Shown here piece by piece: positions 8,271 through 58,400 of a stretch of 64,000 bases of DNA (the first letter of the stretch is position 1; every line of letters starts with the position of its first letter). The position numbers were made by a program, and so were the translations under genes. Location: assembly GCA_945643635.1 (NCBI GenBank), contig CALZFC010000004.1, forward strand, positions 695,001 to 759,000. Reading direction: 5' to 3'. Origin of the DNA: Allodiplogaster sudhausi (Eukaryota > Nematoda > Chromadorea > Rhabditida > Diplogasteridae). The notes under the pieces were generated by a model. It was given only the letters and a program-made list of their open reading frames with translations, was not told where the DNA came from and did not search any database.

Positions 8271-9203
8271 GAAAGAGGGAGGGGGTAGAGAGAGAGGGAG
8301 AGAGAGAATGAGAGAAAGAGAGCGAAAGAGAGAGCGAGAAGGCGCGCGCGGCCACTGAAGACATCTCGAGGCTGAAGCAGCTGCAGGATCTGCTCAATGG
8401 AAGAAAGGAAGAAGGCAGAGTAGAGAAAATGGACATGACATACTATAAATTAATTATTGAACAAACATATAAAAAAGAGATTTTTTAATGATTCTCAAAT
8501 TTTCACATAAAAAATTGATGAAGAAAATGAAAAAAAGTTTAGCGAATATTTCTTTATAAATCGTTATATTTCTTTATATTTGAGTATTTCTTTATAAAGG
8601 AACAGCCACCAGAACTCCAGCAGAAAGTTCAATTTTCCAAAAATATTTATATGAGCTCCGCCTTTCAAAACCACCACATCATAAATTGTGACCAGCATTC
8701 TTTTTATTAATTAATCACTTTGATATTGACTGTTTCTAGGATATTTTGAAATACAATGGTGTTATTTTTGAATTTTTTTCTCCCTCAACTTTTGGCGGCG
8801 CTCATTGTCAGGCGATTTTTTCACGTATTCTTGATTACAAACCAGAACTGAGTGAACACTGTAGATGTTGAATGATGTCTACATTAGCGAGGAAAAGCAG
8901 AGAGAAACAAGAGAGAGAGAGGACGAGAGAGAGAGAGAAAGAGAGAGATGGAGAGATAATTCGAGAGGACAAAGAGAGCGGCAGCAAAGAAACACTATAA
9001 CCCACTTAGAACATGGATAATATGATTTTTAAATTTTGGAATCTACGTACCACACACTAACAACCGTCTGCTCGATATGACTCTAAACTTTTATGGTATT
9101 GCGTCGCATTGTAAACCGCCTGGCCTGCCATTCTTGACCAAAAGAATGCCGCGCAATCGTCCAACAAAGTCCCGTCTGCTTTTTCTCTACTTCTCTAGCT
9201 CTC

Positions 9204-9235
<32 letters not shown>

Positions 9236-12285: not shown

Positions 12286-12560
12286 ATCTTAATGCAATGA
12301 ATACTGAAACTTGTTAGAATTCAGAAATGATTTCTACATTCTACAGATATGCGAGAGTACATTTTTTTACATTGATCGAGGCAGTCGTGTTCTTTTTTTT
12401 CTTTGTTTGGAAAAGAAGAAAGTCTACCCGGCGACGATTGCTCTCGATTCTAAACAGATATCACGCACTCTTGCCTTCAAAACAGAACTGATTGTGAGAG
12501 AAGATGTAGAATGATGAGGTTGCCTACCGTTAGTGAGGAAGAGCAAGGAGAGAGAGAGAG
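12286..12560 (+). repeat. Left arm of a local inverted repeat
   Basis: About 275 bp here are the near-perfect reverse complement of 13222-13500, including the poly-T and 'gaagaaagtctacccggcgac' stretches. The arms are separated by about 660 bp. An untranslatable repeat is the likeliest reading. The 67-codon frame on this arm and the matching one on the other are mirror images of the same repeat. Confidence 0.85.
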
Positions 12561-13221
12561 GGGTGGAGAAGAATACACTTCATAAGTAAAAATGATATAT
12601 TCTTAATGATTGTTAGAGAAGGAGACACTGATTAAACACTACAATAGGTGCCCTGGAAAATATGTTACAGATGGAAAATGTATGAAAATGTAAAATTTGG
12701 GCCCAAATTCACGAAGCGGTGGTTTGGAAACGCGGAGCCGATGTAAACATTTTGGAAAAATGAACTCTCTTGATTATTTGAAAAAGAATGCCGAATGGAC
12801 AGCAACTCTAGCAAGGGGCACACAGTGGCGATAAAGAGAGAAGTAAATAGAGAGTGAGAGTGAGAAAAGAGAGAGAAGGTAAGGGAGAAAGTGAGAAGCA
12901 AAATTAGAGATCGCCTGTGAAGTACATATGTATACACAAAACAGACTTGAATTTGGTCGGCGATTGTATGGTATTCTTTTGGTCAACAATGGCATGCCAG
13001 GCGGTTTTTATTTCAGCACCAAACCATAAAAGTTTAGCGTCATACCGGTAAGGCGATGATAAGCTGGACAAGAGTTCCAAATAAATGTTAAATCAATTTA
13101 GCGAAAACATCAGTAGTTTCTGTGTATTTCTTTTCTCTCGCACTTTCTCTGCCTCCCTCGCCCTATCTCTTTCTCTTTCTATCTCTTTCTCTCACCCTCT
13201 CACTCTTTCGCTCTCCCTCTC
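12561..13221. repeat. Loop of the 12.3/13.5 kb inverted repeat
   Basis: The loop contains GA/CT tracts, a 'cacgaagcggtggtttggaaacgcgg' type module (about 12708-12735), a reversed 'gcctggcatgcc' module (about 12960-13040), and a candidate unoccupied TTAA site at 12632-12635. The sequence left of that TTAA matches the flank of the central element at 19450-19482. Confidence 0.7.
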
Positions 13222-13500
13222 TCTCTCCCTCCTTGCTCTTCCTCACTAACGGTAGGCAACCTCATCATTCTACATCTAAAGTGTTCTCTCACAATCAGTT
13301 CTGTTTTGAAGGCAAGAGTGCGTGATATCTGTTTAGAATCGAGAGCAATCGTCGCCGGGTAGACTTTCTTCTTTTCCAAACAAAGAAAAAAAAGAACACG
13401 ACTGCCTCGATCAATGTAAAAAAATGTGCTCTCGCATATCTGTAGAATGTAGAAATCATTTCTGAATGCCAACAAGTTTCAGTATTCATTGCATTAAGAT
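13222..13500 (-). repeat. Right arm of the local inverted repeat
   Basis: This is the reverse complement of 12286-12560. Homology to that arm ends at 'cttaatgcaatgaatactg', which is present in both arms. Confidence 0.85.
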
Positions 13501-14256: not shown

Positions 14257-15364
14257 TCTCACGAACTATCTCTCTCTATCTCTTTCTCTAGCTATTTCGT
14301 TACTATCTCTCTGTCTCTCTCCTCTCTCTCGCTCTTGCTCTCTCACTCTTTCTCCCTCTCCCTCCCTCTCACTCTCTGCTCTTCCTCACTATTGGAAAAC
14401 AACCTTATCGTTCAACATCTACAGTGTTCACTCAGTTCTTTTTGAAAGCTAGAGTGCATGGTGTCCAGCAAGAATCGAGCAATCGTCGCTGGTGGGCAGC
14501 CGTTCTTCTTTTTCAAACTTTGAAGTAAAAAAAAACTATTTCGATCAATGTAAGAAAATTATACTCTCGCATATATGTACATATTATTGAATTAATTTCT
14601 GAACACACATTAAGATGTATTACAAAACTCTGCGATGGAAACTTCGTTTTTCTCTTCTTCTTTTTATCGTCTGATTAGCGGCGACTTCTTGATATAAGAC
14701 TTTCTCTTTTATCAAAGATGGAATTATTTGTATGTTGACGGATTAGCAGATATAGTAATTATTTTGTTATTACAAAAATAATAATAATATTATTATTATT
14801 AATTTTAGATAAGCAGCCGGATCGGGCTCGTTGAGTAGTTCGATGCAGAATTGAACGAGAGCCGTTGTACGCGCGAGGCGAGCGGAATATCGAGCGCTTT
14901 GCTCGCGTAGAATACTATTCTTGATAAGGAAAAGAAATAGATATAATTATTGATTTAATTTAATTTATTTATTTTTAATTAATTTATTCTTAATTAACAA
15001 AGATATATCAATTTTTTATATTAATGGTTACAGATAAATAGAAAGGTAATAAAAACTACTAGGAATTAATAATTAGCTCACCAATGATTTTGAAGAAAAG
15101 GCATTGACAACGTATCCTTCTTTTACCCGCTGATTTTCACAGGTGATTTTCACTTGGCCGGATTTTCTTTATCCTCGCAATAGAGGGATTTGCTGATGAT
15201 CCTTCTGTGTGACACGCAACAAAATTACCTGTCAAACAAAAGAGCTCGAATTCATAACCGAGTTTTGAGCTCCTTTAATTCTTGGAAAACGACCAGCATG
15301 ATTACTGATTCAGAACGTTCGGTCACCTCTTCAACAGTATGTTCATACATTCATTCCCTATACG
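13501..15364. repeat. AT-rich spacer and repeat modules, no gene
   Basis: The spacer holds a copy of the 'gcagctcctcaactgcaattg' module (about 14095-14210), a 170-bp CT tract (14215-14385), a reversed 'gatgtagaatgatgaggtt' type module (about 14390-14520), AT-rich sequence, and a diverged partial copy of the 0-1.4 kb unit at about 14815-15180 (gatcgggctcgttgagtag, then 'gattttcac'). Confidence 0.6.
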
Positions 15365-16662
15365 CCAGGCTGTTTACATTTCCACACCACACCATACAAG
15401 TTTAGCGTCATAAGGGAAAGGCAATAATTGCGCTTCAGTGGGTTTAAAAAATTGTATTAGCCTAAATAGTTTATATATGTATTTCTCTGATCTCGCTCTA
15501 TTTCTTTCTCTTGAACTGTGTATGTCTCTTTCTCTTAATATCTTTCTTGCTCTCACTCTCTTTCTCGTTCTCTCTCTCTCTCCCTCTCCCTCTCTATAGC
15601 TTATCACAATCGAACCATTCTAATACGTCTCTCTCGTTGATTTTTTATGATCCTATTGTTTGAAAGAGTAGCAACTCGAAGAAAGAGAGCAGGTATCGGA
15701 GACTGACCAGATAACTGGAGGTATCTTGGAGAGTGAAGAATGAGAGAGAGATACAAATAAAGAGAGACATGGAAAGAGAGTTAGAGATAGAGTGTGAGAA
15801 ACTATAGAGAGAAAGCAGAGGAGAGAGAGAGAGAGAGAGTAGTGCACAGCTTGAAGAGGAAGCAAGAAAGAGGGCGCCGAGTGGTTTTGTGAAAAAGTGT
15901 GTATTTTGAGCTCATCTTTAACGACAGTGTATGTGTGAAACAGGACTTTATTTATTGTATATTTCAAACGAATTCAGATTTGTTAATTTTTTTCATATCC
16001 TAGGAGAGCTCAGGGAAAGATGGAGAGAAAGAGATAAGAATCAATTCCATCTGACAAATCTGAACTATTTTACAAGAAGTACGAAATGGAGCAAAGGGCA
16101 ATGACATTTTTTTTTATTCGATGAAATAGCCTCTTGATTAGCCCGGAAGTATTTCATTAAATAATTAATAGAAGCATTTGACCATGTCTTATTTTAAATT
16201 GTATTTTCTATATTTTAAATTTATTAAATCTCTACGAACAAACTTCGAATCATCCTACGAAATCGCTTCCCGCACTTATGCTTTTCGCACATTCGAAAAC
16301 CACAGGGCAAATGAATTTTTTTTTTAATATTTTATATTTTATAAGTAAAAGGTGATATTTAATTGCATTTAAAGAACCGTAAATTTTTAGTGCAGATGAT
16401 ATTTCATCCTTCAAGAATTACGACTCTTCCAAGAGGATATTCTTTACAATTATGTTTAAAAAAGATTAGTTCGATGCTATTGCTGACTGTTTTCAACATT
16501 CAAATCTCATTAAAATAAAACAAATATAAATTTTTAAAATGTATTTTCATTAATAGTTAAGGATGCGCAATCAAAATAGCTGTATGGTAGTTGGAGATGC
16601 GTTATTAGCAGGAGGAACGTTAACGATGTGGGGACAAAGAGTGACAGATAGAGGGAGAACAG

Positions 16663-16700
<38 letters not shown>

Positions 16701-18589
16701 AAGAGAGAGATTTGAGAGAGCTGAAAGAGCAAGAATAAAAGGGCGCGTCCTCTTGGAGAAATTAAGAGTTATCTGGGAGAAGTCAAAAAGCAAGGCGAAC
16801 CAACAGAAAACACACAGCTCAACGATATGAAGGATCATCACGGTTGCAAAGAACCGGGTCACTGTCTGCCTTAAATCTTCTGTTGCTGGTTGCGCATACA
16901 TCTAGAGCTGAAGTGATAGACTATGAGGGGAGGGGGGTTCTATTGGAGGCAGGGGGGTTCTACTAGAGGGAGGGGTTCTATTTTTCAATGGCATTTTCAG
17001 AGGGAGGTACTATTAGAGGGGGTGTTCTAATAAAGGGGGGGGGGGGTACTAATAGAGAAAATACGGTATATTAAAAAAATTGTGAAGTGAAATTCATAAT
17101 GCTTATTATGTCTTTCACCTCTTTTCGTCAACTTTCTTCTATTAATTCTTAACAAAAATGAATTGAATTTCACGCGGGCGAAAATGAATTACCTTTTGTG
17201 AAAACTTTTTGATAAGCTACATACTTTTGATCATTAAACGTGTTATGATGGTACACACAGAATATATGTATGTATTTCATATGTTGTTTTTTTCTTCGTC
17301 AGGAAATCTTGCAGAATTGGAGAGCAACAATGTACATATGTACATATGCAGTAGAGTTCAAGATAAGAATGATGTCACTTTTTTATACTCGAGCAAGAGA
17401 TCGTTATCGAGAAATGTTTAAATCTCAGAAAATTTGAAGGTGCATCGCAGCGGAAAAGTACCGGGTCAGTATCATGCTTAGAATCTTATATTGTCATCTA
17501 ATAATAAAATTTTCACTTTACATACCTATTATATATTTCTATTCCTTTAGTACCTTTTCATTTTTTAATGATAATAAATCAGATTCGCTTGTAAGAAAGA
17601 GATATGGCGAAATTATGTAAAGCATTTTTTTCTTTCCTTCTTTCTGCTTTTTTCAAAGTGTTCTTCGCTTGTTGTTCTTCTAGATGGTAACATTTTTTTT
17701 TCTTTTTTTGTTTTGTTTCGGGCGAAAAGGGAGGGGATCTATGAGATCTCTGAGATCCGGCTTTTCGCCATGAGAGCCACTCCCTTCTTTTGCCTTCACC
17801 GCCACTCGGATTCAAAACATTTCTCCGTGGTAAGACTCATTTGAACAACAACTACGAAGTAAGAGAAGCTACCTAGCCATGAATTTCTTGTTATTATTAA
17901 GTTCTCTTGTGCATAGACGCCAGGAATGAAACTTATAGTGGAAAGGTGCTCCCAGGTATGTTAACGTTTAAACATGCTCTGTTATTTATCCTTTCTTTTT
18001 TCTTCGTCAGTAAACTTTGTAGAATTGCTGAGAAACGATGTATGTACATACATAGACATGCAATATATAAGACTGCTGCTATTTTTATCAACAAATGTAA
18101 TGGCTTATCGCAAAACATTCAAATCTCAGCAAAATGAAGGTACATCGCGGCAGAAAAGCACCAGCTCAGTGCCTCGAAAGATTTGAAATACACTGTCGAA
18201 TCCTAATCATTATTCCCATCGTCTAACCATAAGAAAACTTTGTTTGCCGAACTGAATCCATAAGCGGATGTATAATTGTTTTTTTTTAGTATAGGCACCA
18301 TACTAAGATTTCAAAAACAACTGAATTAAATGTTGAATCCAAGAGCCTGGAAACGAATTTTTTGCATAATTGCAGAATGGTCAATAATAAAACCTGAAGA
18401 GTGTGAAAAGAAATGCATATAAATTTCTACCGGAAACCTTCTGATAACGCTTATCCGATTCAACGCTTCTTACATATGTATGTATTGTGTCGAAATATAA
18501 ACCGTCTGGCACGGCCTGCCATTGTTGAGCAAAAGGATGGCTCCTAATCGTCCAAGAGAGTCCCGTCTGTTTTGTATCTACTTTACTAG

Positions 18590-18666
<77 letters not shown>

Positions 18667-19167
18667 TCTCTTTCTCTCTTAATCTCGCCTTCTCACTGGT
18701 ATTCGTATCATCCATTTGCGCACTTCTCACCAACGAATATTTTGTCTTTATAACTCATTTATTGTAAGTGTTTTTTTCATCTCTTCATTTTGTATGTACT
18801 GCAATCAAAATACGGCCGTAATTTCCTTCCCAGCTTCCCAACTCCTCGTCTGAAATTCCATAGCTTGCTCCTCAACCGCTCCACTGCCTCCGTCAGTACT
18901 AAAGTGAAGAGGAAGAACCTCATTGCATAAGGACGATCGCGAAGAAATTTAAATTAAATATAAAAAAAAATTATTCTCGTCACTATAAACGAAGCAGTGG
19001 TTTAGAAGTGAGCAGCCGATATAAATATTTCTGTTAGATTGATGAATTGATTGCTGAATGCGAACCATTGAGTTTCTCTGCCACCTCCAGTTTGTATTGC
19101 ATAAAGATGTATAGCTGGACGTTGCGAGGGAAGGCGATGATCTAATCGGGTGCTGAGATAGATATAA

Positions 19168-19213
<46 letters not shown>

Positions 19214-20411
19214 GGAGAGAGTAGGGGAAAGGGAGGGAAAGCGAGAGAAAGGAAGAGAGAGAGGAGAGATAGAGGGCGAGAGAGAAAGGGAGAGGGAGAG
19301 AGTGAAAGAGAGAGGAGGGGGAGAGAGAGAGAGGGAGAACAAGACTTGAGACATAGTTTTTGTGTGACACTTCACACTTCATACGTATAAGTGCAGCAAC
19401 TCTGAATTGTGACATTGATAATTTTTTTATACTCTTGCATTAAATAAATGTTCTAAATGATTGTTAGAGAAGGAGACACTGCTTAAGAGAGCCTCTCTGT
19501 ATGCCTCCAGTAGGGCCTGCCCCAGATCCAGATGTTGGATTTCGAGTATGAAAACATAGTCAGGCATGACACAGGCCCCCAGTAGCAAGATTAAATGGTT
19601 AAAATTTTTTTTCAAAAAAATTTCTTGAGTGAACAGTTAAAAGTTTGTATATTATATGAATTGACGTATCTCGCTTCAAACTGAATATTTTTCAATTTTC
19701 TTTTCTTTATTGGCATCGCCGTTGGATTCTAAACAAAACTGCCGTGATGAGTTTCAGTCAGCTATTTCATTTTCACATCGAAAAATTACTTTTAATATTT
19801 GAATTTGACGGTTAAGTACCTTATACTCATTTGTGTGTGGGTGTTATATCTCAAAATGTAGAGCATTAAAAACTGTATAACATACCTTCTTTTCGTTTAG
19901 CGTGGATGTCTCCCAAGCTGTCAAAAATAGCCTCAAATTGGCGTACCTCGGAGATGTGGGATTCAAGGAATGCGTGATAAAGAAGTTAAATTCTTATTGT
20001 AACATAAAATGAACCACTTCATTCGATTCAGCACGTGTTCCTTTTCAAGAAATCTCTAAAAACGTTCATAAAACTGTCGTTTTCCATGAAAAAAACCCAT
20101 TTTGCGAAATTTCCGCTTCCGACAGAAAATGACCTAAAACTATTCGAATCGCTGTATTTTCAATATTTTCAGTAAGAACAAAATGCGGATAGTACTGTTC
20201 AGTACGTAACAAAATTCTCTACAACATGCATACTTTACAGCTGGATATGGCGTCCCTACGAATTACAGTATCGATTTTCCAAAGGCCGTCGCGCCCAAAC
20301 TGACAGAACCGCATTTGGTAACTTTTCGTGAAATTTTAAGGTTTCTTACTCATCCAATATATCATTCTGCTCCATTCAGCATACTGAATTCAGAACCGAT
20401 GTTTATTTTGC
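15365..20411 (+). repeat. Left arm of the giant palindrome
   Basis: This arm is the inverted copy of 26224-32604. Matching landmarks include 15375/32595 (caagtttagcgtcata), 15850/32100 (gcgccgagtggttttgtg), 16620/31380 (taacgatgtgggga), 17810/28810, 18500/28150, 19000/27680, 19450/27180 and 20395/26240. The 76-codon frames at 17907-18137 (+) and 28500-28730 (-) translate identically, although the DNA differs at least once (for example c/t in the 'gaygccagg' position). It is therefore not a perfect assembly duplicate. No gene is evident in the arm. It holds CT/GA tracts at 15540-15600, 15740-15840, 16660-16715, 18590-18690 and 19165-19340. Confidence 0.9.
16920..17068 (+). mobile_element. Pogo-like transposon end, G-rich fragment
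   Basis: The fragment is G-rich, with repeats of the type 'ggaggggttctatt', and ends in 'actaatagagaaaatacggta'. The same terminus ends the elements at 29580 and 36629. It sits where the two palindrome arms stop matching, so it marks an arm-specific insertion or deletion. Confidence 0.6.
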
Positions 20412-20797
20412 AGATTTGGATTCTGATTGTTTCACTTTTTATGCAAGATGTTACTTTGGACGCTTTGCGATACTATAGTCACCCTACAATTAGAGCCATT
20501 ACTAGCAAGGCATTGCCAACGAGAATGAATTGGTCTAATACAGCAATTATTATGAATAATTAAGGATGAGGCGTTGCCTAATGACGAGCGAACTTATAGG
20601 CGAATACTAATTACAGTGCCGAAGGTTAATTAAGCCACATAAATAGCAAATATCTTGGCATCTTCTTATTCAACTGTTCCTTCAGACATTGTGAACTGTT
20701 CTTGCCTTCTTCATTCTGTGTTGTTTCACTATAAACGTGCCCTTTCTCTTCTCGCATATTCATACATACATATGTACATATATTTCTTTTCATTTAG
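20412..20797. other. 5' region of the DDE-like gene, start unresolved
   Basis: This follows the inner end of the left inverted repeat. An open stretch at about 20655-20740 includes the residues VNCSCLLHS and could be a first exon, but I cannot find a donor whose phase fits the next exon. The initiator codon of the gene is therefore unknown. Confidence 0.35.
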
Positions 20798-23700
20798 ACT
20801 AAATGCGCTTACTTCTTCTTTTTCTGCTGTTCCACCTCGTGATAAAGTGAAGCTTCCGTTGACAGTCGAAGAAGACGTGCCTTGTTATTTCTCCGTCCTC
20901 CGCAAGACAACTGAGGAGACATACGAGCGTCCTATCGTATCTCGAGTGAGCACCGACTGCCAAGGCGCAAAGAGAAAGTTAGAGTGGAATTTATGACACT
21001 TTTAAATTTATTTTTCGACTACGATTTAGAATGCGCGAATTAATTGACCAAGAAGCAGTCAACTCTCTTGGAACTACTAATCTTCTGGATATGATATTGT
21101 CGAGAGGAGCTGGAGAGTTTGATTGGAATTACAACAACGAAGCTGAAGTACATTTATATAAATGTAATAGCTATTTAGTTCGGTTACGTTTTCTTCAGAT
21201 TGGCTCAGTTGGCGAGAGATACATATGCGACAAGCACATCAGGGAACTCGGAACAGAGTGGGAATCTAAGCCATTCTACCATTTCAAGCGAAAGAGGGGG
21301 ACGGCAAAGAAGGTGTGCTCGTTGCCTCCACCGTATTCACAGCATGAATCAGCCAAAGGTCTTCCTTCACCCCCTCTGGTGTCGGGAAGCACAGTTGTTG
21401 AGAAAAATGAAGCTAGCGCAGCCTTAGCAATGGAACACGTCCTACTTCATATCGGATTGCGTTAGTTCTTTCGTGCCTAAATAGGTGAAGAATAATAGCA
21501 ATCATTTCAGCTGTATGCCCGTCTCATAAAGAAGAGCTCGAAAGAGACAGGACGCAGAAAAAAGTGCAAGAATCAGGGCACTCATTCGACCCTCCCCTAC
21601 TCGAGCGTCGTTTCTCCAAAACGCCAGACGTTATCACTGAAAACGTTCAAGAGTATCCAACATGCTCTCAAGAAGATGATCCGTCGTACCTGCCGCGCCA
21701 TGAAGGACCACCGATGAAACGCACTGTGTCAACAGCCTCGGAATCTGCAAAGCAGACATTCAACGCCTTCCTTAAAGCAATCGGGCAGGGGAAGATAATA
21801 CGGCGCATGGATTTCCGAGATCTTGCGGAAAGGTCCCAGAGGAGAAAAGCGCAGTACTTGCGGAGTGCTTTCGAAGTGGTATATGAGATAGTAGCTCCCG
21901 ATTCTCCCGAAATGCTTAAGAAAATGATAGTTTCCCCAGACCTGGAGGAGCTCTACGAGCGAGAGAGAACTGACAAATACGATGCCCTGATGAAGTCCAT
22001 AAAGTCCCGGTTTCTCAATGCGGATTCCCGAGTTGAAAAGCTTCATCTGCTCTCACTGGTCACACCACTTCTGGGCCTGGCTGCAGTGCAGCGTTATATA
22101 CTTGGCTTATCAGAGTATTTCTATACAAAATCAAAGCGTCTCGCATATCGCGGATCAAAGGAAATCTCCAAGGATCTAAAACGAAAGAGGTATACGCAGG
22201 AGCAAGTGAATCGCTTCGTCGAATTTATTACCAGGTTTGTGATCGGGTTTGAAATATATTTTACGAGTAATTGGACTTTGCAGCTTCAAAATTTCGACTA
22301 GCCTTCCGTTCGGAACACGATCCTCGAAGCTCTCGGATGGAAGTCTGATTGAATATCCAAATGTTCTCCGACAACATAGCGCAACAGAGATAATTGAGCT
22401 CTATAAGCGGTAAACGTTATTATTCCTTGCAATAAGTTCTGCCGTTGAAAATTTTATACTTTATTCAGAGATCTTGAAGAAACTGACGAGGTTTATTTGA
22501 TGATGTCACCAGCAACTCACTATCGAATTCTGTCTGCTTGTACAGCATCTACCCGAAAGAGTCTCCATGGAGTAGATTTCTTTGTGGCGGAAGCAATGGA
22601 AGTCGGTTACTAATTATTTACACACACAAAATATCAATTTATTCTCAGGCCTTCGATGATGCTCTTGCATTGCTTGAAAGCTTAAAAGCTGATGGCGATA
22701 TCGACGAATACTGGTTCGGGTCGCTCAGGATCAAGATCTTGGAAGTGAAGCAATATCTAAGGACAGACTACAAAGTCCACATCAAGCGAAAATCAAGAAT
22801 AGGGGACCACTGCATCCAGCACGGATTGAGCGATCCCCAGTCTCCTGAGTATGCCAACCCTTGTGATGGAGCAGAAGAGGAAGACGAACATATGCACAAC
22901 TTTATTTGTGACCGATGTGAGCTATTGAAGGTTAGGAGAAAAAATTTTTTTAAGACACAGAGTACAAACTTCAGATTACGTTGGGTGATATTCGCGAAAC
23001 CATCACGGCTCTGATTTCGGCTTCATCTCCAAGAACAGAACGCCGGAAAAAATTGGATCGGAAACTCGCAGACTGGCATAGAATAGAGGAAGCCATAGAA
23101 AATCTCAAAAAGCATCAGCTTCGCGCCATCGCAAGTGAACATGACCGCGATTCCTTAGTCTCAAACTTGGGGAACGGCGAAGCTCTGATTACGCTCGATT
23201 GGGCGATGAAACTGCTTCCCCTCTTCGCACGTGAGAAGACTACGGATTATTACGCCAAGCGTGGAATTTCTTGGCATATTAGTCACGTTCTTGCCAGAGT
23301 TAATGGCGAACTGACTCAGCATACTTTCGTTCACATTATGGAAGGAGATCTTCAGGTACGATTTTCATGTTACTTCCGCCAATAGTACAATCAAGGTGCC
23401 TATCCTCAGGACACAACTGCCGTTACTTCAAATCTCGCTCATGCCCTAATTGAACTATCTCGTGTTGGAATTAAGAAAGTTCATCTTAGGTCCGATAACG
23501 CCGGTATGTGATAATATATTCTTCATGTATGTAATGATCGTATTATTAGAAATGCTATTATTTTATCACTTTTTCTTTGCCAGGATGTTACAAAAGTAGC
23601 GCGACGATCGCCAGTCTGCATGACCTCTCGGCAAGAACTAACGTGGAGATCGCTTCGTACTTCTTCAGTGAGGCTCAGGCAGGGAAGTCGGCATGCGATC

Positions 23701-24260
23701 GCTTCGCTGCAGTCGTGAAACGTAAAGTTCACGATTACGTGGACTCTGGACATGACGTCAAAAATGCAGACGAATTTTTTCAAGCTGTTCTTCATGGCAG
23801 TAATGAACTGTCGGGACTCTCTGTTTACGTCAGAACCCTGACAAATGCCAAAGCTTCGACAACGAAAATCCCCGGGATTTCAACCCTCAATACGTTTGTG
23901 TTTGAAAAAGAAGGAGTACGCGCCTACAGGCACTCTCGCATCGGCTCTGGAAAAGTTGTTCCATATTCCACAATGACTTCGAATTTCGTGTTTTCAAGCA
24001 CCCGGAGGAGCGGAGGCAAACTAAGCCACATGGAAGACTTCTGGTCGATACCTGGAAAGCGCATGCGCTCAGAAGAAAGCACAACCTGTGACCCACCGCT
24101 TGTTTCGACTAAAGGCGATTGTGCAGCCGAAGACTCCGACACATGCGCGCTTGAGACCCATCTTTTTCGGTGTCCCGAAGAGGCATGCATGTCTGAATTT
24201 CTCGTTTCTACCCTGAGGTGCAGGCCGCTGTTGCATCACTGCAGGTTTGATAACTCAAAG

Positions 24261-24342
<82 letters not shown>

Positions 24343-24911
24343 ATATAATGTATAATATCCTTTGCTTTAGGAAACTACTGAAAGCGGAAAGAAAACCAAG
24401 GAAGGATGGGCACTTCGTGACCGTAAGAAAGGGGAGCGACTTCCCGAACGCTCCAAGGAATTTATCAAGCATATCTTCGAAGAAGGGTGGCGTACTAAGG
24501 TAAAAACTGACCCTCGCGCCGCAGAGCAACGTATGCGAAACGCAGTGGACTGCCAAGACAAGCTGTTATTCGCACCACATGAGCTTTTAAACTATCGCCA
24601 AATAGCTTCCATCTTCTCACGCCTCGCTCAGCAACAAAAGAAAGTTAGGAAGAATAATCGCTTGATGCATAGAACAAAAATATCTTTTATAGAACCCACC
24701 AATTCCGACTGAATCTGAGGAAACAGATGCGGTGCTCCAGGACCTGTTCTCGCAAGAAGGAGACGTAGAGGAAGAATTTGAAACTGACCCGCAGTTTGAC
24801 ATCACTGTTGATCATAGGGTAATTGCGCACGCCCAAACCGAATTAGCTGAAGATGTGGAGAACCCATCGGAAACAACCGAAGGAACACATTTTAAAGATG
24901 AATTACGCTAA
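20798..24911 (+). CDS. DDE-transposase-like protein with Cys/His clusters, ~12+ exons
   Basis: Exons that keep one frame are 20798-20983, 21030-21147, 21199-21460, 21511-22234, 22284-22409, 22469-22601, 22649-22930, 22975-23355, 23410-23503, 23584-24244, about 24371-24643 and 24693-24911 (stop), about 1,150 codons. Introns are 46-80 nt except one (24245-24370) that holds an (AT)n tract. Order of features: ICDKHIRELG (about residue 111) and VCPSHKEEL (about 190), like paired Cys/His ligands; a segment with FGTRSSKLSDG; RKSLHGVDFF; a Cys/His cluster DHC...C...HMHNFICDRC (about 575-610); DWAMKLLP (D about 685); HLRSDNAGCY (D about 766); FFSEAQAGKSACD (E about 798); a CPEEAC half zinc finger; LLNYRQIASIFSRLA; and an acidic tail. 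From memory, this pattern belongs to a widespread unnamed metazoan family. The D-D-E reading and a transposase role are inference. The 5' end and the junction across the (AT)n intron are unresolved. Confidence 0.78.
24256..24346. repeat. (TA)n microsatellite in an intron
   Basis: About 90 bp of nearly pure TA lie between the exon ending at 24244 and the one starting near 24371. The related copy at 62.3-62.9 kb has about 50 extra residues at this place, so the tract may have replaced or hidden coding sequence. Confidence 0.9.
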
Positions 24912-25309
24912 CAAAGCTTCCGATCTGCAATAATCAAACTTTTTAGTTCTCAATTTGTCTGCTTAAAATTGACTAACAATAACTGATTGCTGTTACTGGA
25001 TTTCTATTTCAGTATTATATGCGTTCGAATTTCTAAAAAAAAATGTATTGGAAAGTGTGGTTAGAACTAGTTTTAAGAATAGTGATAAATTCATGGAATA
25101 TATGAGGACTTAACAATATATTCGGCACCAACTTGCAAGATCATATACCTATTTGGCACAGTGTCTGACAAACCGAACACAAAAGTACTGTAGGAGAATA
25201 ATTTATTCGTGATGTTTGTCATCATTCAATTGATTTCATTGTAATAAAAGCTATCTTTAGAGTTATCTAGGTTATTGTACACGTTCAGAGTTTATTTAGT
25301 GTTAACAAA

Positions 25310-25713
25310 ATGTGCGACTGCCCCCCTAACACGACATGCATGGAAGTCACGACGTTTGAGTTCAATTGCGTGTGCGCGGAAGGCTTTTCAGGAGCGATGT
25401 GCACACCTGGTAAGCGGAACAGTTTTTTAAACTAATTATACGCATTTGGTAGGCATTATATTCCACTGATTTTTTTTCTTTCAGTTGACGACCATGGAGT
25501 ATCGACCAGTCTTTGCCTCATTTTCGCCGTTGTCGCCATCTTCATCATCCTCGCCATCTTCTATTTCTGCAAGACCTGCAAGCCACAGAAGCGAAGTGTA
25601 AGTTGCAATAATCTAATTGTTTCATATTGCTTATTACTACTGTTGCTAAAATCTTGAGCGGCAATGTCACAGTTAAACATTTTTAGGACTATATCGAGCT
25701 CGAGCAGGTCTAA
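25310..25713 (+). CDS. Small EGF-like single-pass membrane protein, 3 exons
   Basis: Exons are 25310-25409, 25485-25597 and 25687-25713. All have GT-AG borders (gtaagc/tttcag, gtaagt/ttttag) and phases 1 and 0, giving 79 residues. Residues 2-31 hold six cysteines ending CVCAEGFSGAMC, which fits the EGF signature C-x-C-x2-G-F-x4-C. A hydrophobic helix (about residues 42-61) follows, then basic KTCKPQKR and a short tail ending ELEQV. The EGF part would be outside the cell and the C-terminus inside. No signal peptide is visible. The frame stays open upstream to a possible acceptor at 25288 (gttcag), so a 5' exon with a signal peptide may exist. The gene lies 0.4 kb downstream of the DDE-like gene on the same strand, inside the TTAA element. 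Ligand or fusogen-type roles cannot be told from sequence. Confidence 0.7.
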
Positions 25714-26223
25714 GCAAAGGACGAGACTTAATATGTTTTTTGTTATATAACGATTTTTAAATATTGCTTGCGGCTATAAAGATTTCGAAAAAATACGATA
25801 TTGAACTGCATACCATTATAATAACAAATTTAAGCACATTTTCTCTTATTCATGAAACCAAAGTCGGGAAATCTGGATGGACAAATGTATGAAAATGCGA
25901 GAAATGGATGTGCATTTTCATCGCACTTCAGTGCTCTCGCCTAATTAGCACAATTCACAATTCTTTTTGGTAATGCCTTGCTCATAATGGCTCTAATTGA
26001 AGTGTGACTAGGGTATCGCACTTCATTCATCTCTAAGCGATGTCTGTCTAGCCACTCGACACTTGTCAAACAGACAATGAAAAAAATAAATCAGAACTTA
26101 CATATAACTACTAACGAAAACTGGCGGATCTGTTTCACTACCTTTTTCGTACATTTCACTGATACGAAGAGGAACCTCAATGCAAAAAAACATTCAGAAT
26201 TGATGAAATCAAACTCGGAAAAA
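25714..26223. other. Spacer between the EGF gene and the right inverted repeat
   Basis: AT-rich, no open frame of note. About 25960-26040 is a diverged inverted match to 20450-20540, so the terminal repeats once reached further inward. Confidence 0.6.
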
Positions 26224-27417
26224 AATAAACATCGGTTCTGAATTCAGTATGCTGAATGGAGCAGAATGATATATTGGATGAGTAAGAAACCTTAAAATTT
26301 CACGAAAAGTTACCAAATGCGGTTCTGTCAGTTTGGGCGCGACGGCCTTTGGAAAATCGATACTGTAATTCGTAGGGACGCCATATCCAGCTGTAAAGTA
26401 TGCATGTTGTAGAGAATTTTGTTACGTACTGAACAGTACTATCCGCATTTTGTTCTTACTGAAAATATTGAAAATACAGCGATTCGAATAGTTTTAGGTC
26501 ATTTTCTGTCGGAAGCGGAAATTTCGCAAAATGGGTTTTTTTCATGGAAAACGACAGTTTTATGAACGTTTTTAGAGATTTCTTGAAAAGGAACACGTGC
26601 TGAATCGAATGAAGTGGTTCATTTTATGTTACAATAAGAATTTAACTTCTTTATCACGCATTCCTTGAATCCCACATCTCCGAGGTACGCCAATTTGAGG
26701 CTATTTTTGACAGCTTGGGAGACATCCACGCTAAACGAAAAGAAGGTATGTTATACAGTTTTTAATGCTCTACATTTTGAGATATAACACCCACACACAA
26801 ATGAGTATAAGGTACTTAACCGTCAAATTCAAATATTAAAAGTAATTTTTCGATGTGAAAATGAAATAGCTGACTGAAACTCATCACGGCAGTTTTGTTT
26901 AGAATCCAACGGCGATGCCAATAAAGAAAAGAAAATTGAAAAATATTCAGTTTGAAGCGAGATACGTCAATTCATATAATATACAAACTTTTAACTGTTC
27001 ACTCAAGAAATTTTTTTGAAAAAAAATTTTAACCATTTAATCTTGCTACTGGGGGCCTGTGTCATGCCTGACTATGTTTTCATACTCGAAATCCAACATC
27101 TGGATCTGGGGCAGGCCCTACTGGAGGCATACAGAGAGGCTCTCTTAAGCAGTGTCTCCTTCTCTAACAATCATTTAGAACATTTATTTAATGCAAGAGT
27201 ATAAAAAAATTATCAATGTCACAATTCAGAGTTGCTGCACTTATACGTATGAAGTGTGAAGTGTCACACAAAAACTATGTCTCAAGTCTTGTTCTCCCTC
27301 TCTCTCTCTCCCCCTCCTCTCTCTTTCACTCTCTCCCTCTCCCTTTCTCTCTCGCCCTCTATCTCTCCTCTCTCTCTTCCTTTCTCTCGCTTTCCCTCCC
27401 TTTCCCCTACTCTCTCC

Positions 27418-27468
<51 letters not shown>

Positions 27469-27965
27469 ATCTATCTCAGCACCCGATTAGATCATCGCCT
27501 TCCCTCGCAACGTCCAGCTATACATCTTTATGCAATACAAACTGGAGGTGGCAGAGAAACTCAATGGTTCGCATTCAGCAATCAATTCATCAATCTAACA
27601 GAAATATTTATATCGGCTGCTCACTTCTAAACCACTGCTTCGTTTATAGTGACGAGAATAATTTTTTTTTATATTTAATTTAAATTTCTTCGCGATCGTC
27701 CTTCTGCAATGAGGTTCTTCCTCTTCACTTTAGTACTGACGGAGGCAGTGGAGCGGTTGAGGAGCAAGCTATGGAATTTCAGACGAGGAGTTGGGAAGCT
27801 GGGAAGGAAATTACGGCCGTATTTTGATTGCAGTACATACAAAATGAAGAGATGAAAAAAACACTTACAATAAATGAGTTATAAAGACAAAATATTCGTT
27901 GGTGAGAAGTGCGCAAATGGATGATACGAATACCAGTGAGAAGGCGAGATTAAGAGAGAAAGAGA

Positions 27966-28047
<82 letters not shown>

Positions 28048-29515
28048 CTAGTAAAGTAGATACAAAACAGACGGGACTCTCTTGGACGATTAGGAGCCAT
28101 CCTTTTGCTCAACAATGGCAGGCCGTGCCAGACGGTTTATATTTCGACACAATACATACATATGTAAGAAGCGTTGAATCGGATAAGCGTTATCAGAAGG
28201 TTTCCGGTAGAAATTTATATGCATTTCTTTTCACACTCTTCAGGTTTTATTATTGACCATTCTGCAATTATGCAAAAAATTCGTTTCCAGGCTCTTGGAT
28301 TCAACATTTAATTCAGTTGTTTTTGAAATCTTAGTATGGTGCCTATACTAAAAAAAAACAATTATACATCCGCTTATGGATTCAGTTCGGCAAACAAAGT
28401 TTTCTTATGGTTAGACGATGGGAATAATGATTAGGATTCGACAGTGTATTTCAAATCTTTCGAGGCACTGAGCTGGTGCTTTTCTGCCGCGATGTACCTT
28501 CATTTTGCTGAGATTTGAATGTTTTGCGATAAGCCATTACATTTGTTGATAAAAATAGCAGCAGTCTTATATATTGCATGTCTATGTATGTACATACATC
28601 GTTTCTCAGCAATTCTACAAAGTTTACTGACGAAGAAAAAAGAAAGGATAAATAACAGAGCATGTTTAAACGTTAACATACCTGGGAGCACCTTTCCACT
28701 ATAAGTTTCATTCCTGGCATCTATGCACAAGAGAACTTAATAATAACAAGAAATTCATGGCTAGGTAGCTTCTCTTACTTCGTAGTTGTTGTTCAAATGA
28801 GTCTTACCACGGAGAAATGTTTTGAATCCGAGTGGCGGTGAAGGCAAAAGAAGGGAGTGGCTCTCATGGCGAAAAGCCGGATCTCAGAGATCTCATAGAT
28901 CCCCTCCCTTTTCGCCCGAAACAAAACAAAAAAAAAGAAAAATGTTACCATCTAGAAGAGCAACAAGCGGAGAACACTTTGAAAAAAGCAGAAAGAAGGG
29001 AAGAAAAAAATGCTTTACATAATTTCGCCATATCTCTTTCTTCCAAGCGAATCTGATTGATTATCATTAAAAAATGAAAAGGTACTAAAGGAATAGAAAG
29101 ATATAATAGGTATGTAAAGTGAAAATTTTATTATTATATGACAATATAAGATTCTAGGCAAGATACTGACCAGGTACTTTTCCGCTGCGATGCACCTTCA
29201 AATTTTCTGAGATTTAAACATTTCTCGATTAGGATCTCTTGGACGGGTATAAAAAAGTGAAAGCATTCTTATCTTGCACTCTACTGCATATGTATGTACA
29301 TTGTTGCTCTCCAATTCTGCAAGGTTTCCTGACGAAGAAAAAAACAACATACCATCATAACACGTTTAATGATCAAAAGTATGTCGCTTATCAAAAGGTT
29401 TGCACAAAAGGTAATTCATTTTCGCCCGCGTAAATCGAATTCATTTTTTTTAAAGAATTAATTGAAGAAAGTTGACGAAAAGAGGTGAAAGACATAATAA
29501 GCATTATGAATTTCA

Positions 29516-29580
29516 CTCCCCCTCTCGCAAGGGTATTGAAAAATAGAACCCCCGGGGGTACTAATAGAGAAAATACGGTA
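29516..29580 (+). mobile_element. Pogo-like transposon end, solo fragment
   Basis: It reads ccccctctcgcaaggg...attgaaaaatag...cccccgggggtactaatagag and ends in aatacggta, matching the right end of the element at 36258-36629. Confidence 0.65.
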
Positions 29581-31284
29581 ATTGGAAATATTTTTCCACT
29601 ATAAATCTTTTCATTTCTATAAATTTGGACAATAAAAGAACTTGCTCTTTTGGAGTGCATCGCTGGCATCTATGCACAAGAGAAGAATGTGTGAAAACAA
29701 CTTTTTTTAACAGACAGAAACGACGATTAAGATTCGAGAGTGTAAGAAGTTTCAATGCATCACCGGTGCTTTTCTGCCGTGGTGCACTTTCTTATCACTA
29801 AACTTGTTGATATTCCGATTGTCTTGGTGATGATAGTCTTCTCGTTGATATAATACTTTCTCTTTATCCCTCTCTCTCTCTCTCTGTCCCTATCTCTCTC
29901 CCTCTCTTTCTCTATCTCTCTCCTCTCTCGTAATCGTTGATTTTCCTCCTGCCAGTCCACCTCAATTGCCCTCTTATGGTCTGGTGCATCTCTTAAAGGC
30001 GCGTATTTCTCTACAAGCCAGAAGCCAAAAACACAATTCATATTCGCGCGGAGCGCGAAGAATAGATCCCTAAAGGAGTGGAACAACGGTGACACTTTGG
30101 GTTTGTTCGAGGCTGGCATTGCTTGACTTGCATTATCAGAGAACAGACAACGAGGTATATCTAGTGACGGGGGGGCTGATAACGGGTAGAAGAATCAGGG
30201 ATGTTCTTGCCTCGGGGCGCCTCCCTCTCTCTTTCTCATGAGAGACGAGACTAAAAAGTTCGGAAAATTCGATTAGATTTTTTTTAGAAAAGCAACAAGG
30301 ATGCCACTTTAAAAAAACAAAACGAAAGTAAGAAAAATTATTCATATAATTTACATTCGCCATATCTCTTTCGTCGAAGTAAAATCCGGCGGAATCTGAT
30401 TTATCATCATTTTTTTTTTAAATAAAAATAAAAATAAATAAAAACAGACTGAAAGAATAGAAAGACAATAAAATGAATGTTTTATTATAGACGTGAATTA
30501 CGATTAAGTAAGATTCTATTCAAAATACTGACCTGGTACTTTTCTGCCGCGATGAACCTTCATATTTTCTGAGATTTGAATCTTGCGTGATTTGCGTGCG
30601 CTAGTAGATTTATCTTACACCGTCCTACATTTCTACGTGCGTCGTTTCACACCAACTTTACAAGGGAGAACGACGAAGAATAAAAGTACACAACTCATCA
30701 CGTTTAGAGGTCAGAAGCAAATATGTAGTTTGTTAAAAGGGTGCAAAACAAATGGCACATTTTTGACCACGTGAAATCGTGTTTATTTTAAACAAACAAT
30801 AAAATAAAGCGGACGCAAAGGAGTTTAAGATATAAAAAGATATTTAACAAATTTTTTTTTTGCATAACTGGGAGTATTTTCCACTGTTTTCACTTCTTTC
30901 AAATTGGAAACTAAAAGAATTTGCTATTTTGCAGATTATCGTAGGTATCTAATATCGTAAAACGCAGGAAAGACGATTCAGATTCGGCAGTACCAGACTC
31001 AAAAGCTTGACCCCGCGCTTTTCTGCCGCGATGATCCTTCATAACACAGAGATTTGGTTCTTCTATGTTTTGTCCACAATATCGTTTTCCATACATACAT
31101 ATACGCAACCAGCAACAGAAGATTTAAGGCAGACAGTGACCCGGTTCTTTGCAACCGTGATGATCCTTCATATCGTTGAGCTGTGTGTTAGCTGTTGGTT
31201 CGCCTTGCTTTTTGACTTCCCCCAGATAACTCTTAATTTCTCCCTCTCTCTTTATCTCACCATCCACGTTCTCTTCTTGTCACG

Positions 31285-31342
<58 letters not shown>

Positions 31343-32005
31343 TGCTGTTCTCCCTCTATCTGTCACTCGTGGTCCCCACATCGTTAACATTCCTCCTGCT
31401 AATAATGCATCTCCAACTACCCTACAGCTATTTTGATTGCGTATCCTTAACTATTAATGAAAATACATTTTCTAATTTATATTTGTTTTATTTTAATGAG
31501 ATTTGAATGTTGAAAACAGTCAGCAATAGCATCGAACTAATCTTTTTTAAACATAATTGTAAAGAATATCCTCTTGCACTGGAAGAGTCGTAATTCTTGA
31601 AGGATGAAATCTCATCTGCACTAAAAATTTACGGTTCTTTAAATGCAATTAAATATCGCCTTTTACTTCGCACATATAAAATATATAAAAAAAATTCATT
31701 TGCCCTGTGGTTTTCGAATGTGCGAAAAGCATAAGTGCGGGAAGCGATTTCGTGCGATGATTCGAAGTTTGTTCGCAGAGATTTAATAAATTTAAAATAT
31801 AGAAAATACAATTCAAAATAAGACAAGGTCAAATGCTTCTATTAATTATTTAATAAAATACTTCAGGGCTAATCAAGAGACTATTACATCGAATAAACAA
31901 ACAAAAAAAACGTCATTGCCCGTTCTCCATTTCGTACTTCTTGTAAAATAGTTCAGATTTGGCAGATGGAATTGACTCTAATCTCTTTCTCTCCATATGT
32001 ATTTA

Positions 32006-32127
32006 CACACTTTTTTCACAAAACCACTCGGCGCCCTCTTTCTTGCTTCCTCTTCAAGCTGTGCTACACACTTTTTTCACAAAACCACTCGGCGCCCTCT
32101 TTCTTGCTTCCTCTTCAAGCTGTGCAC
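32006..32127. repeat. 62-bp tandem duplication
   Basis: Two consecutive copies start 'acacacttttttcacaaaac' and run through 'cttcctcttcaagctgtgc'. The left palindrome arm has one copy (reverse complement at about 15842-15900), so the duplication arose after the arms formed. Confidence 0.9.
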
Positions 32128-32604
32128 TACTCTCTCTCTCTCTCTCCTCTGTCTTTCTCTCTCTAGTCTCTCACACTCTATCTCTAACTCTCTTTCCATT
32201 CCATGTCTCTCTTTATTTGCCTCTCTCTCTCATTCTTCACTCTCCAAGATACCTCCAGTTATCTGATCAGTCTCCGATATTCTTCGAGTTGCCACTCTTT
32301 CAAACAATAGGATCATAAAAAATCAACGAGAGAGACGTATTAGAATGGTTCGATTGTGATAAGCGATGGAGAGGGAGAGGGAGAGAGAGAGAGAACGAGA
32401 AGGAGAGTGAGAGCAAGAAAGATATTAAGAGAAAGAGACATACACAGTTCAAGAGAAAGAAATAGAGCGAGATCAGAGAAATACATATATAAACTATTTA
32501 GAATTATGTTAATATAATTTTTTAAACCCACTGAAGCGCAATTATTGTCTTTCCCTTATGACGCTAAACTTGTATGGTGTTGTGTCGAAATGTAAACAGC
32601 CTGG

Positions 32605-34396
32605 CGTGCCATTTTTGACAAAAAAAATGCCTCATAATTTTACACCAAAATTCCATCTCTTTTGTTTATACTTCTATTGCGCTCTCTCTCTCTCTCTCTA
32701 TCTTTCACTCTCTCTCTCTCTATCTTTCACTCTCTCTCTCTCTCTCTGACTCTCTTCCTCTCGTTAATTTCCTTTTCCTCTGTATTGAAAATCTCCACAT
32801 TTCGTAGGACTGTTCTTAAGGTATAGTAATTGTTGCTGCTTCATTTCGTGACGGTGGTTTGTCGTGCGGTGACTTGTATCAGATAAATCAAATGTTCGTA
32901 TTAATTGATAAGTGTCTTCCTGCCTTTCTGCACAATTGTTTTCTAGCCAATCTAGATAAACTAGTTATTGTTTTCGCGGAAAGCTGTTGGATTTTTTGCT
33001 TCCACTGCTCTATTCATATCTAGAAATATTCATATCTCTCGCTCTCCTTCGTCTGTCTACCTCTCGTTATCCCGGTACCTCTCTCTCTTACTTTCTCTCC
33101 CACTTTCTCTCTCTCTCCTTTCGCCCTTTCTCGCTCCCTCTCTCCTTTCCAGTTCCCTCTCCTCTGGTTCTCTCCTTCCCCACTCTCTCTATCTCTCTCT
33201 CTATCTCTCTCTCCCTCGCTTTCTCCCTCTCTCCTTTCCTGCCCCCTCTATTTACAACTCTCCTTTCATATCTCTCTCCGTCTCTCTCTCCCTCTCTCCT
33301 TTCCAGTTTCCATGAGCTCCGAAAAGTAGATTGCTTCAAAAACGCTTCGACGGCTCACTACGGGCAAGCCCTTCGGTGTTTCTGGACATTTCCCCTATTT
33401 TTTTCTTTCTATCTTTGCTCACTCTTCTTCTGCTCGATCGCTTTCTCTGCGCACTCTCCTAAACCTTTTTTTTCTTTTTTTGTCTGTCATGAATTGTATG
33501 TGTATATGTACACGAGAGTGCATTCCCAGGTGGTCTAAAGTCTTCTTTCTTCTTATTTTTGCTCATTTATGCTTATAAAAAAAAATAGCACATCATAATT
33601 TTCATAAATAAAAAAAAACAATTCGATGCCAAAAAAACAAACAAAAAAACAATGGTTTTGCGCGCGCCATAAAAGTATATTAGGAAAACGCGATTGCAAC
33701 TCACGCTAACATCCGCTTTTCCGTTGCAGTTTATTTAATAAATTCAATCAATATTTGTATGAGATCTCGATCCCCAACCATTGATTCGTGGACATTTCCA
33801 ACATTTCTTTTTTGTTTTGTTTTGGGCAGGGCACGAAAGTCTTCCGTTTTAACTCTCCAACCTGTGAGATGCCAAACATTTTAACGCTTTTTCCATGTTC
33901 CACAAAACTGTAATTAAAAGGAGTGAGGCAGAGCTCCTGAAGAGCCGGCCTTTAGTTTGTGGTCCAATTACAACCTTTTAATCGAAAACTCAATTAATGA
34001 AAACAGCTTAAAAGTTAGGCATCATTAAATAAGCTGTCTGAATACCATATTCCAGCGTCAAAGTTCAATACTCAGATGATATTCAGACATCCATATTGCT
34101 TGATTTTCTGTAGTTTCTAATAAAATTAAATTCGCAGATACCATGCTGCATTTTATTTGTTTCTAACGATAAACCTCTCACAAATTTCTGAAACAAATCA
34201 TTGAGTTCTTTTGTTCCCTGTCCTTTTACAATGGGGCATGCTCGAGTCTCTCAGATTGGCTCTCTTAAAGTCTTCTTAAATTATTTCGAAAAAAAATTTC
34301 GACGGGAAAGAGAGATTGAAGAGAGAAAGAGAGAAAGTGAGAGTGAGAAACAGAGATTAAAAGAGAGAGAGAGGGAGGCAGAGAGAGAGAGAGAGT

Positions 34397-34428
<32 letters not shown>

Positions 34429-35322
34429 TACGTTACATGGCATCTTCAATTAGAGAAAAGGAGGAGGAGGACAAAAACAATTAACAATTTGATGGTCGTC
34501 GACCATTTATGTTTTCAGAAATAACGGATATAACAATGACATAACTCAATTTTATTTAACAAATTCGATGCCCAGTGGTTTGCGACAGTCGTAAAAGTAT
34601 AAGGGGATGAAGAGATTTTAACACACGATTGCTTCTTACCATTAGAAAAAGTTGCTGAATAATAATTAACACATTTTATATAGCCAACAATTATATCATT
34701 TCCAAGAATCTAGGATAAAGAAAAAAGCCGGGCAAGTGAAAATCACCAGTGAAAATCAGCGCATAAAAGAACGATGCGTTATGAATGCATTATCTTCATT
34801 TTTGAAAATCACTGGTGAAAGAATAGAGATATAGAAATGTTGTGTGCTCGGGTATGTAATTGAGGAAGAGATGACTCTTCGAAGAGAGAGAAAATTTACG
34901 CGAGAGAGAGCGAAAGTGAGCGAAAGAGAGAGTGAGAGAGATAAAGAGAGAGAAAGATATGGTTCGAGAGAAACAAAGAGAACGAAAGCAAAGAAATACA
35001 TATAAACTACTTAGAATAGGGTTAATACGATTTTTTAAATTGTGTGATACTCTGTGTCAGCTGAATATCGTCTACTCGATATGACTCTAAAGTTTTATGA
35101 TGTTGTATCGAAACATAAACCGCCTATTCTGCCATTGTTGACCATAAGAATGCAGAGTAATCGTCCACCAGAGTCCCGTTTGCATTGGCTCAACTTCTCT
35201 AGCGCTCTCTCTCTCTCTGTCTCTCTCTCTCTCTGTCTCCCTCTTTCTAATTCTCTCGCTCTCTCTTTCTCTAGCTCTCTCTCTCTCTCTTTCTCTCTCC
35301 CTCTTTCTCTTTCTCTTTCTCT

Positions 35323-41885: not shown

Positions 41886-41894
41886 CTCTCCCTC

Positions 41895-58362: not shown

Positions 58363-58400
58363 TTAAGGGAGCTTCTCTGTAAGAGTCGAGCATGCGCTTA
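58363..58400 (+). mobile_element. Truncated TTAA-type terminus
   Basis: It reads TTAAGGGAGCTTCTCTGTAAG followed by gtcgagcatgcgc, close to the terminus at 60958. It abuts the next element and has no body of its own. Confidence 0.5.

Follow-up and report, generated by a model that had tools for sequence, protein, structure and literature searches.

A palindrome of about 17 kb, with a DNA transposon at its centre, is present in the assembled genome sequence of the diplogasterid nematode Allodiplogaster sudhausi on contig CALZFC010000004.1. Short introns and the nearest homologues likewise suggest a nematode host. The DNA analysed is a stretch of 64,000 nucleotides (positions 695,001 to 759,000 of the contig), referred to here as the window, and all positions are those of the window unless another contig is named. 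A preliminary description of this DNA had proposed inverted arms around a 5.8-kb centre, and self-BLAST of the window located such arms on either side of 5,812 bp (20410-26221). The transposon carries two genes, a transposase-like gene (gene 1) and a small gene for an EGF-like protein (gene 2), and it extends beyond this centre into both arms (Table 1).

Table 1. Features of the palindrome and of the transposon at its centre (window coordinates)
Feature	Position	Strand	Remarks
Left arm	15362..20409	+	4.1 kb of mirrored flank and the left terminal inverted repeat (TIR)
Older part of left arm	15362..17698	+	4.4-4.7% mismatches to right arm; lacks the 1.58 kb of 29518-31099
Putative young copied or converted flank tract, left	17699..19482	+	right counterpart about 27149-28939
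TTAA target site, left	19483..19486	.	
TTAA-flanked DNA transposon	19487..27144	+	7,658 bp; ends from the 7,464 bp common to two copies and the end sequences of 11 copies
Left TIR	19487..20409	+	100% identical to right TIR; outermost ~197 bp of 5' type, whereas the closest relative, C245, has a 3'-type left end
Gene 1, transposase-like protein	21031..24911	+	11 exons, hand-built model
Gene 2, EGF-like and membrane-span protein	25310..25713	+	79 amino acids; 3 exons, hand-built model
Right arm	26222..32607	-	right TIR and 5.5 kb of mirrored flank
Right TIR	26222..27144	-	5'-type terminus; resemblance to the 5' side of the C75 copy extends inward, past the TIR, to about 25960
TTAA target site, right	27145..27148	.	
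Right-only stretch	29518..31099	.	1,582 bp against 187 bp on the left, net 1.4 kb
61-bp tandem duplication	32004..32125	.	two copies, right arm only; one copy in left arm

The transposon and its termini

Relatives of the transposon are numerous in this genome. A search of 351.8 Mb in 382 contigs with 2 kb of gene 1 returned at least 41 matches, namely the window itself, 12 that cover the full query at 97% identity, 11 that cover nearly all of it at 88-89%, and others that are partial; at least 23 other relatives therefore span the query almost in full. We fetched 20 copies (12 from the 97% group, 7 from the 88% group, and one on contig C245), and in all of them the innermost sequence of the palindrome arm adjoins the coding region, so the innermost part of each arm belongs to the element. 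Two copies fetched with longer flanks, on contigs C75 and C42, have 7,464 bp in common at 99.8% identity and no flank beyond, and their ends consist of TTAA followed by GAGAGC and GCTCTC followed by TTAA. The TIRs of the window copy are the innermost 923 bp of each arm. These boundaries replace the earlier picture of the 5.8-kb centre as the element, and the pogo-like ends that had been described were not confirmed. The span 20466-26020, which has an inverted repeat (77 columns at 82%) and a duplicated CTT, was also considered as the element and rejected because other copies continue with the same letters outside it, and the span is therefore internal.

Both ends were read in 11 other copies, 10 from the 97% group and 1 from the 88% group, while C81 provided the 3' end only and C245 the 5' end only. 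All 11 are bordered by TTAA on either side, lie between flanks that do not resemble each other, and have distinct 5' and 3' termini. The 5' terminus reads GAGAGC[G/C]TCTC[T/C]GTATGCC in ten of these copies and has a small deletion in the eleventh, and the 3' terminus reads GAGAGCCTCTCTGTAAGGATC in all of them. Against these 11 copies the window copy stands alone, with a 5'-type terminus at both ends and with mirrored flanks. For 303 bp outward from the TTAA, its left and right flanks mirror each other perfectly. Its two TIRs are identical over 923 bp including the terminus, whereas TIR-to-TIR identity is 96.3% over 891 columns in the C75 copy and 98.5% over 827 columns in the C42 copy, in both cases without the outermost stretch. 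The mirrored flanks begin exactly at the target site of the transposon, which ties the transposon to the event that produced them. A mirrored flank by itself could have several origins, but two termini of the same type indicate copying through the end of the element.

Other copies with unusual structures were also observed. In L020 (contig C91), which does not contain gene 2, the 3' side has been overwritten by 5'-side sequence, giving a longer inverted end, although its 3' terminus is normal; end changes of other sorts thus occur in this transposon family. The 5' end of L062 (C33) abuts the apparent 3' end of another copy, with one TTAA common to both, and in L028 (C355) the 3' part of gene 1 is tandemly duplicated within the element.

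Divergence of the palindrome arms

The arms align in two blocks. The inner block (17086-20409 against 29517-26222) is 97.8% identical over 3,331 columns, and the outer block (15362-16898 against 32607-31100) is 87.6% identical over 1,578 columns, a shortfall that is mostly driven by gaps. Among the inverted pairs listed for the window at E <= 1e-10 these blocks are the longest, the next being 875 columns at 69%, and the inner block is also the highest in identity. Besides the 1.58-kb stretch present only on the right, for which the preliminary estimate of about 1.4 kb was sound, 97 mismatches and 30 gaps distinguish the two arms. The tandem duplication that had been given as 62 bp is real and confined to the right arm, but its unit is 61 bp.

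Divergence is uneven along the arms, with a sharp step from 0.11% in the inner 2.7 kb to 4.4-4.7% further out. In the inner block, 27 mismatches fall within the outermost 613 bp and 3 within the other 2,711 bp, the change point being at 17698 (twice the log-likelihood ratio, 74); the outer block has 67 mismatches in 1,440 sites. Some short gaps also occur in the inner 2.7-kb tract.

Between the DNA left of 15362 and that right of 32607, the longest inverted match within the window is 285 columns at 68%, suggesting that the two sides within the window are not allelic. Toward the centre, a continuation of the mirror into 20410-20465 and 26021-26221 is weak, as 50 of 1,000 shuffles score equally well. 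Single-strand folding of 25930-26230 gave a z of -1.4, with 6 of 100 shuffles equally good. Ten open reading frames (ORFs) in the arms were compared with Pfam, and the sole match was a weak one to Atrophin-1 (E 0.0048) in a low-complexity stretch; ten ORFs elsewhere in the window had only weak matches below the cut-offs. Scans with Rfam and for tRNAs each returned 0 matches.

A genome search with the arm piece 15900-16630 matched nothing apart from this locus, short stretches close to it on C4, and contig C67. When an arm segment was used as query, all 31 matches were on C67 (1959-2047 kb), C16 (6349-6359 kb) and C4 (595-737 kb); those on C67 and C16 are near a contig end, which is perhaps a special chromosome region. 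Smaller inverted-repeat structures in the window, at 12286-13500, 41892-43502 and 58397-60319, have arms of 0.3-0.8 kb at 88-96% identity and are probably fold-back or short TIR elements. A dispersed repeat occurs at 6644-6794, 9076-9218, 12930-13060, 32549-32699, 35080-35222 and other positions, and CT tracts follow several of its copies. The repeat has seven matches elsewhere in the window, the left arm aside.

Genes of the transposon and its classification

Gene 1 is predicted to encode an RNase-H-fold (DDD) transposase. The fold is suggested by a homologue, P0001, and a predicted RNase-H/integrase core with three conserved acids was found. The zinc finger of gene 1 is damaged beside a TA repeat at 24262-24358. 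The protein matches no Pfam family up to E 1. A homologue search with the single sequence found 45 proteins, whereas a search by alignment gave none among 7,996 scored candidates at E 0.001, a result that we read as a limit of the tool in view of those 45. When 33 members of the gene 1 family were compared with Pfam, 21 families were matched at E <= 0.1, including SAP in 2 of the 33 (best 3.4e-05) and C2H2 in 3; the KDZ transposase domain is not among these families, and one homologue has a weak match to DUF7869 (E 0.055). Viral contigs gave 62 pattern matches and no relative, and a viral fold library gave 432 matches at E <= 10 and none at E <= 0.001. A profile search of PDB returned 51 sequences at E <= 1, nearly all of them zinc fingers. 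A second relative of gene 1, which is without the N-terminal part, is on the minus strand at 61778-62894; it has about 40% identity at the C-terminal part and 31% further up, and it adjoins a 58-bp tandem array.

The element resembles members of the Kolobok superfamily, which are described as having TTAA target duplications, termini of the form 5'-RR...YY-3', a DDD/E-type transposase and, in some cases, accessory genes, and whose hosts include nematodes (PMC9587614). TTAA forms the 4-bp target site duplication of the window copy and of all 11 others read at both ends, the termini GAGAGC...GCTCTC (GA...TC) follow the 5'-RR and YY-3' rule, and the element combines a predicted transposase of this type with a second, accessory gene, as in that description. 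However, the C/DxxH signature stated for Kolobok was not seen, in an alignment read by eye, between the second and third predicted acids, D712 and D753, the latter itself a prediction. Gene 1 also has no Pfam match, and the accessory gene is EGF-like, whereas those given for Kolobok in the same account are KolX, nucleases or helicases (PMC9587614). Zisupton/KDZ elements have likewise entered Pristionchus nematodes, and share with this element TIRs and multi-exon transposase genes of more than 1,000 amino acids (PMC9297572, PMC12730594). They are described with 8-bp duplications, in contrast to the TTAA found here, and gene 1 and its relatives lack a KDZ match in Pfam.

Gene 2 appears to be an accessory gene kept by the element under purifying selection, judging from its distribution and its pattern of substitution. 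Its first exon is present in 8 of the 12 copies in the 97% group and in 6 of the 7 in the 88% group. For this exon the ratio of nonsynonymous to synonymous substitution (dN/dS) is 0.16 between the window and L030, 0.12 between L016 and L030, and 0.32 between the window and L016, values that come from no more than 99 bases, in which synonymous changes number 3 to 10; the corresponding ratios for a 600-base part of gene 1 are 0.20 and 0.33. The exon of L030 was placed by means of tblastn coordinates, as an exact match could not anchor the group 2 copies. EGF models in Pfam score below their cut-offs with the gene 2 protein, and a homologue search, in which no candidate had three words in common with it, found none. 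Among the papers listed by two narrow literature searches, none joined Kolobok with EGF, or an EGF-like domain with cargo genes of DNA transposons, although such an absence is not thereby proven.

Origin of the mirrored flank

We regard break repair primed in a TIR as the best explanation of this locus, and a reasonably probable one: such repair would have copied the right end of the element and the right flank onto the left. A TTAA-targeting transposon with inverted ends of about 0.9 kb would have inserted at the locus, and a break would then have arisen at or near its left end. Pairing of the left TIR with its near-identical counterpart could have made the right end of the element the repair template, and synthesis would have run outward through the right terminus and the TTAA into the right flank. 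Joining of the new strand to the left chromosome end would leave the left terminus replaced by one of 5' type and the right flank mirrored on the left.

Several observations suggest that copying proceeded from right to left. The closest relative, the partial copy on C245, is 99.2% identical over 2,842 columns, and its left end is of the 3' type; the window matches it from 19684 inward, and not in the outer 197 bp. On the right, the inner stretch of the window copy is of 5' type past the zone of arm identity (87.7% over 269 columns to the 5' side of the C75 copy), and the right end therefore looks native. The outer edge of the right arm, at 32607, is inside the dispersed repeat, which continues past this edge without interruption, as it does in other copies. 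The left arm, in contrast, breaks off within that repeat, as expected if the right side were the source. Parsimony, with one close relative as the standard of comparison, thus makes the right side the probable source of both the end and the flank.

The outer parts of the arms suggest a longer history. Part of the arm, starting at 28384 and running outward, is present a third time on contig C67, with 92-95% identity in the main blocks. Of the 1.58 kb that the left arm lacks, about 1.44 kb is included in this third copy, which argues for loss on the left instead of gain on the right; the third copy also has a short repeat that only the left arm keeps in full, so each arm has apparently lost something. 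In the inner tract (555 sites), left and right have 2 and 1 private differences compared with 25 for C67, which makes left and right sisters. They are sisters again in 231 sites further out (2, 3 and 16 private differences for left, right and C67), the opposite of what is seen in a piece of 538 sites discussed below, and the pieces used for dating contradict one another. One piece of 419 sites (44, 10 and 9) was distorted by a CT tract and was re-cut before use. It appears that a young copied tract lies on an older inverted relation, and the term ageing, which had been applied to the whole duplication, would fit the outer arms only. One possibility is that the first copying dates far back and was followed by renewed copying of the inner part; the other is that the new strand was captured, perhaps near 17698, by an inverted repeat that was already there.

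Some findings weigh against this reconstruction. The direction hangs on one partial relative, C245, whose own end may be the altered one, and whose right end was not found. The body of the TIR does not discriminate between ends (87.1% to the C75 5' TIR over 927 columns and 87.7% to the C75 3' TIR over 730), and the left side of the window copy also has a diverged 5'-type stretch further in, at 20466-20839 (73%). Just outside the young tract, private differences of left, right and C67 number 17, 17 and 5 in 538 sites, so that left and right are not sisters there, and the two re-cut outer pieces are balanced (1, 3 and 4 in 139 sites; 3, 4 and 2 in 157). These outer pieces do not show left-right closeness, which is unlike the result of one recent copying of the whole arm.

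If alternative transposition, a reaction reported for maize Ac/Ds, or breakage and fusion of sister chromatids had occurred at the transposon, the right flank could have been placed in inverted orientation onto the left end; alternative transposition and breakage and fusion at a transposon had both been named in the preliminary description. The part of that suggestion which stands is an inverted duplication centred on a transposon, with arms that carry independent indels and a mirror that begins exactly at the TTAA, and transposon ends are likewise found at rearrangement breakpoints in the alternative transposition reported for Ac/Ds (PMC3744419, PMC8225341). Plain forms of these reactions, however, would be expected to leave each terminus unaltered and not to swap one terminus for the other type. 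The join is at a terminus, yet both termini of the window copy are of 5' type and its TIRs are identical throughout their 923 bp, in contrast to one terminus of each type in the 11 other copies, none of which has such a swap. Fusion alone should moreover give a mirror far longer than 5 kb and require a second break. We therefore consider this origin unlikely, and place it level with the main rival, an assembly error. On reaching the left TIR the assembler would have crossed over to the right one and written the right flank, perhaps from the second haplotype, once more on the left side. A misrouted path through a collapsed TIR would look just like the terminus replacement and flank mirroring seen here. 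The two arms differ independently in the 1.58 kb, the mismatches and gaps, the 61-bp duplication and the unequal loss of the short repeat, and these differences speak against a simple mis-assembly, as the preliminary description had argued, without settling the matter. In addition, the DNA beyond the arms is not allelic within the window, and the megabase contigs imply long reads able to span a 0.9-kb TIR. Mis-assembly is thus unlikely. The palindrome as such is real in the assembled sequence, and it is a good candidate for an inverted duplication that formed naturally around a transposon.

Insertion of the transposon at the exact axis of a perfect palindrome that already existed would explain why, with the element removed, the flanks meet at the TTAA without a spacer. 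Such an insertion must hit one exact point of a spacer-free palindrome, a type of structure that is unstable, and it leaves the two 5'-type termini unexplained; we judge it very improbable. The idea of a single giant transposon spanning all 17 kb, with inverted ends of 5-6 kb, draws on the presence of arm sequence beside the coding region in every fetched copy, but the part common to these copies is the TIR. Because the C75 and C42 copies end after their shared 7,464 bp, and because the repeat at 32607 runs past that edge in other copies, this idea was rejected and has almost no probability left.

Break repair primed in a TIR would be a variation on known routes of repair and rearrangement. 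For Pack-TIRs, breaks within TIR elements are described as being filled with sequence copied from other DNA, the template being switched along the way (PMC8277862). Break repair by copying in a TIR element is common to both cases, although the copied DNA is inside the element there, whereas flank DNA is mirrored outside the element at this locus. Palindromes with gene conversion are reported from Y chromosomes and some parthenogens, and these have inverted arms and a homogenised tract in common with the present one (PMC7953838). The arms here are small, are without recognisable genes, and surround a transposon, and near-identity is limited to the inner 2.7 kb, through recent copying or later conversion.

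The transposon family itself, outside a settled class, is a second point of interest. That a transposon should keep an EGF-like membrane protein, with purifying selection apparently acting on it, was not to be expected, and prompts one to ask how the protein affects the host. It is conceivable, though doubtful, that these elements represent a TTAA-targeting animal family outside the described superfamilies, with a selectively maintained gene for an EGF-like membrane protein and with kilobase TIRs that prime end-rewriting, host-mirroring repair and so repeatedly seed palindromes in this genome.

Long palindromes are fragile and drive rearrangement, and to our knowledge their birth is seldom caught. 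At this locus, near-identical sister copies give the normal ends of the element, and the altered end and mirrored flank can therefore be interpreted as the trace that one repair route has left behind. If this reading is correct, transposons with long inverted ends should occasionally leave mirrored flanks together with replaced termini.

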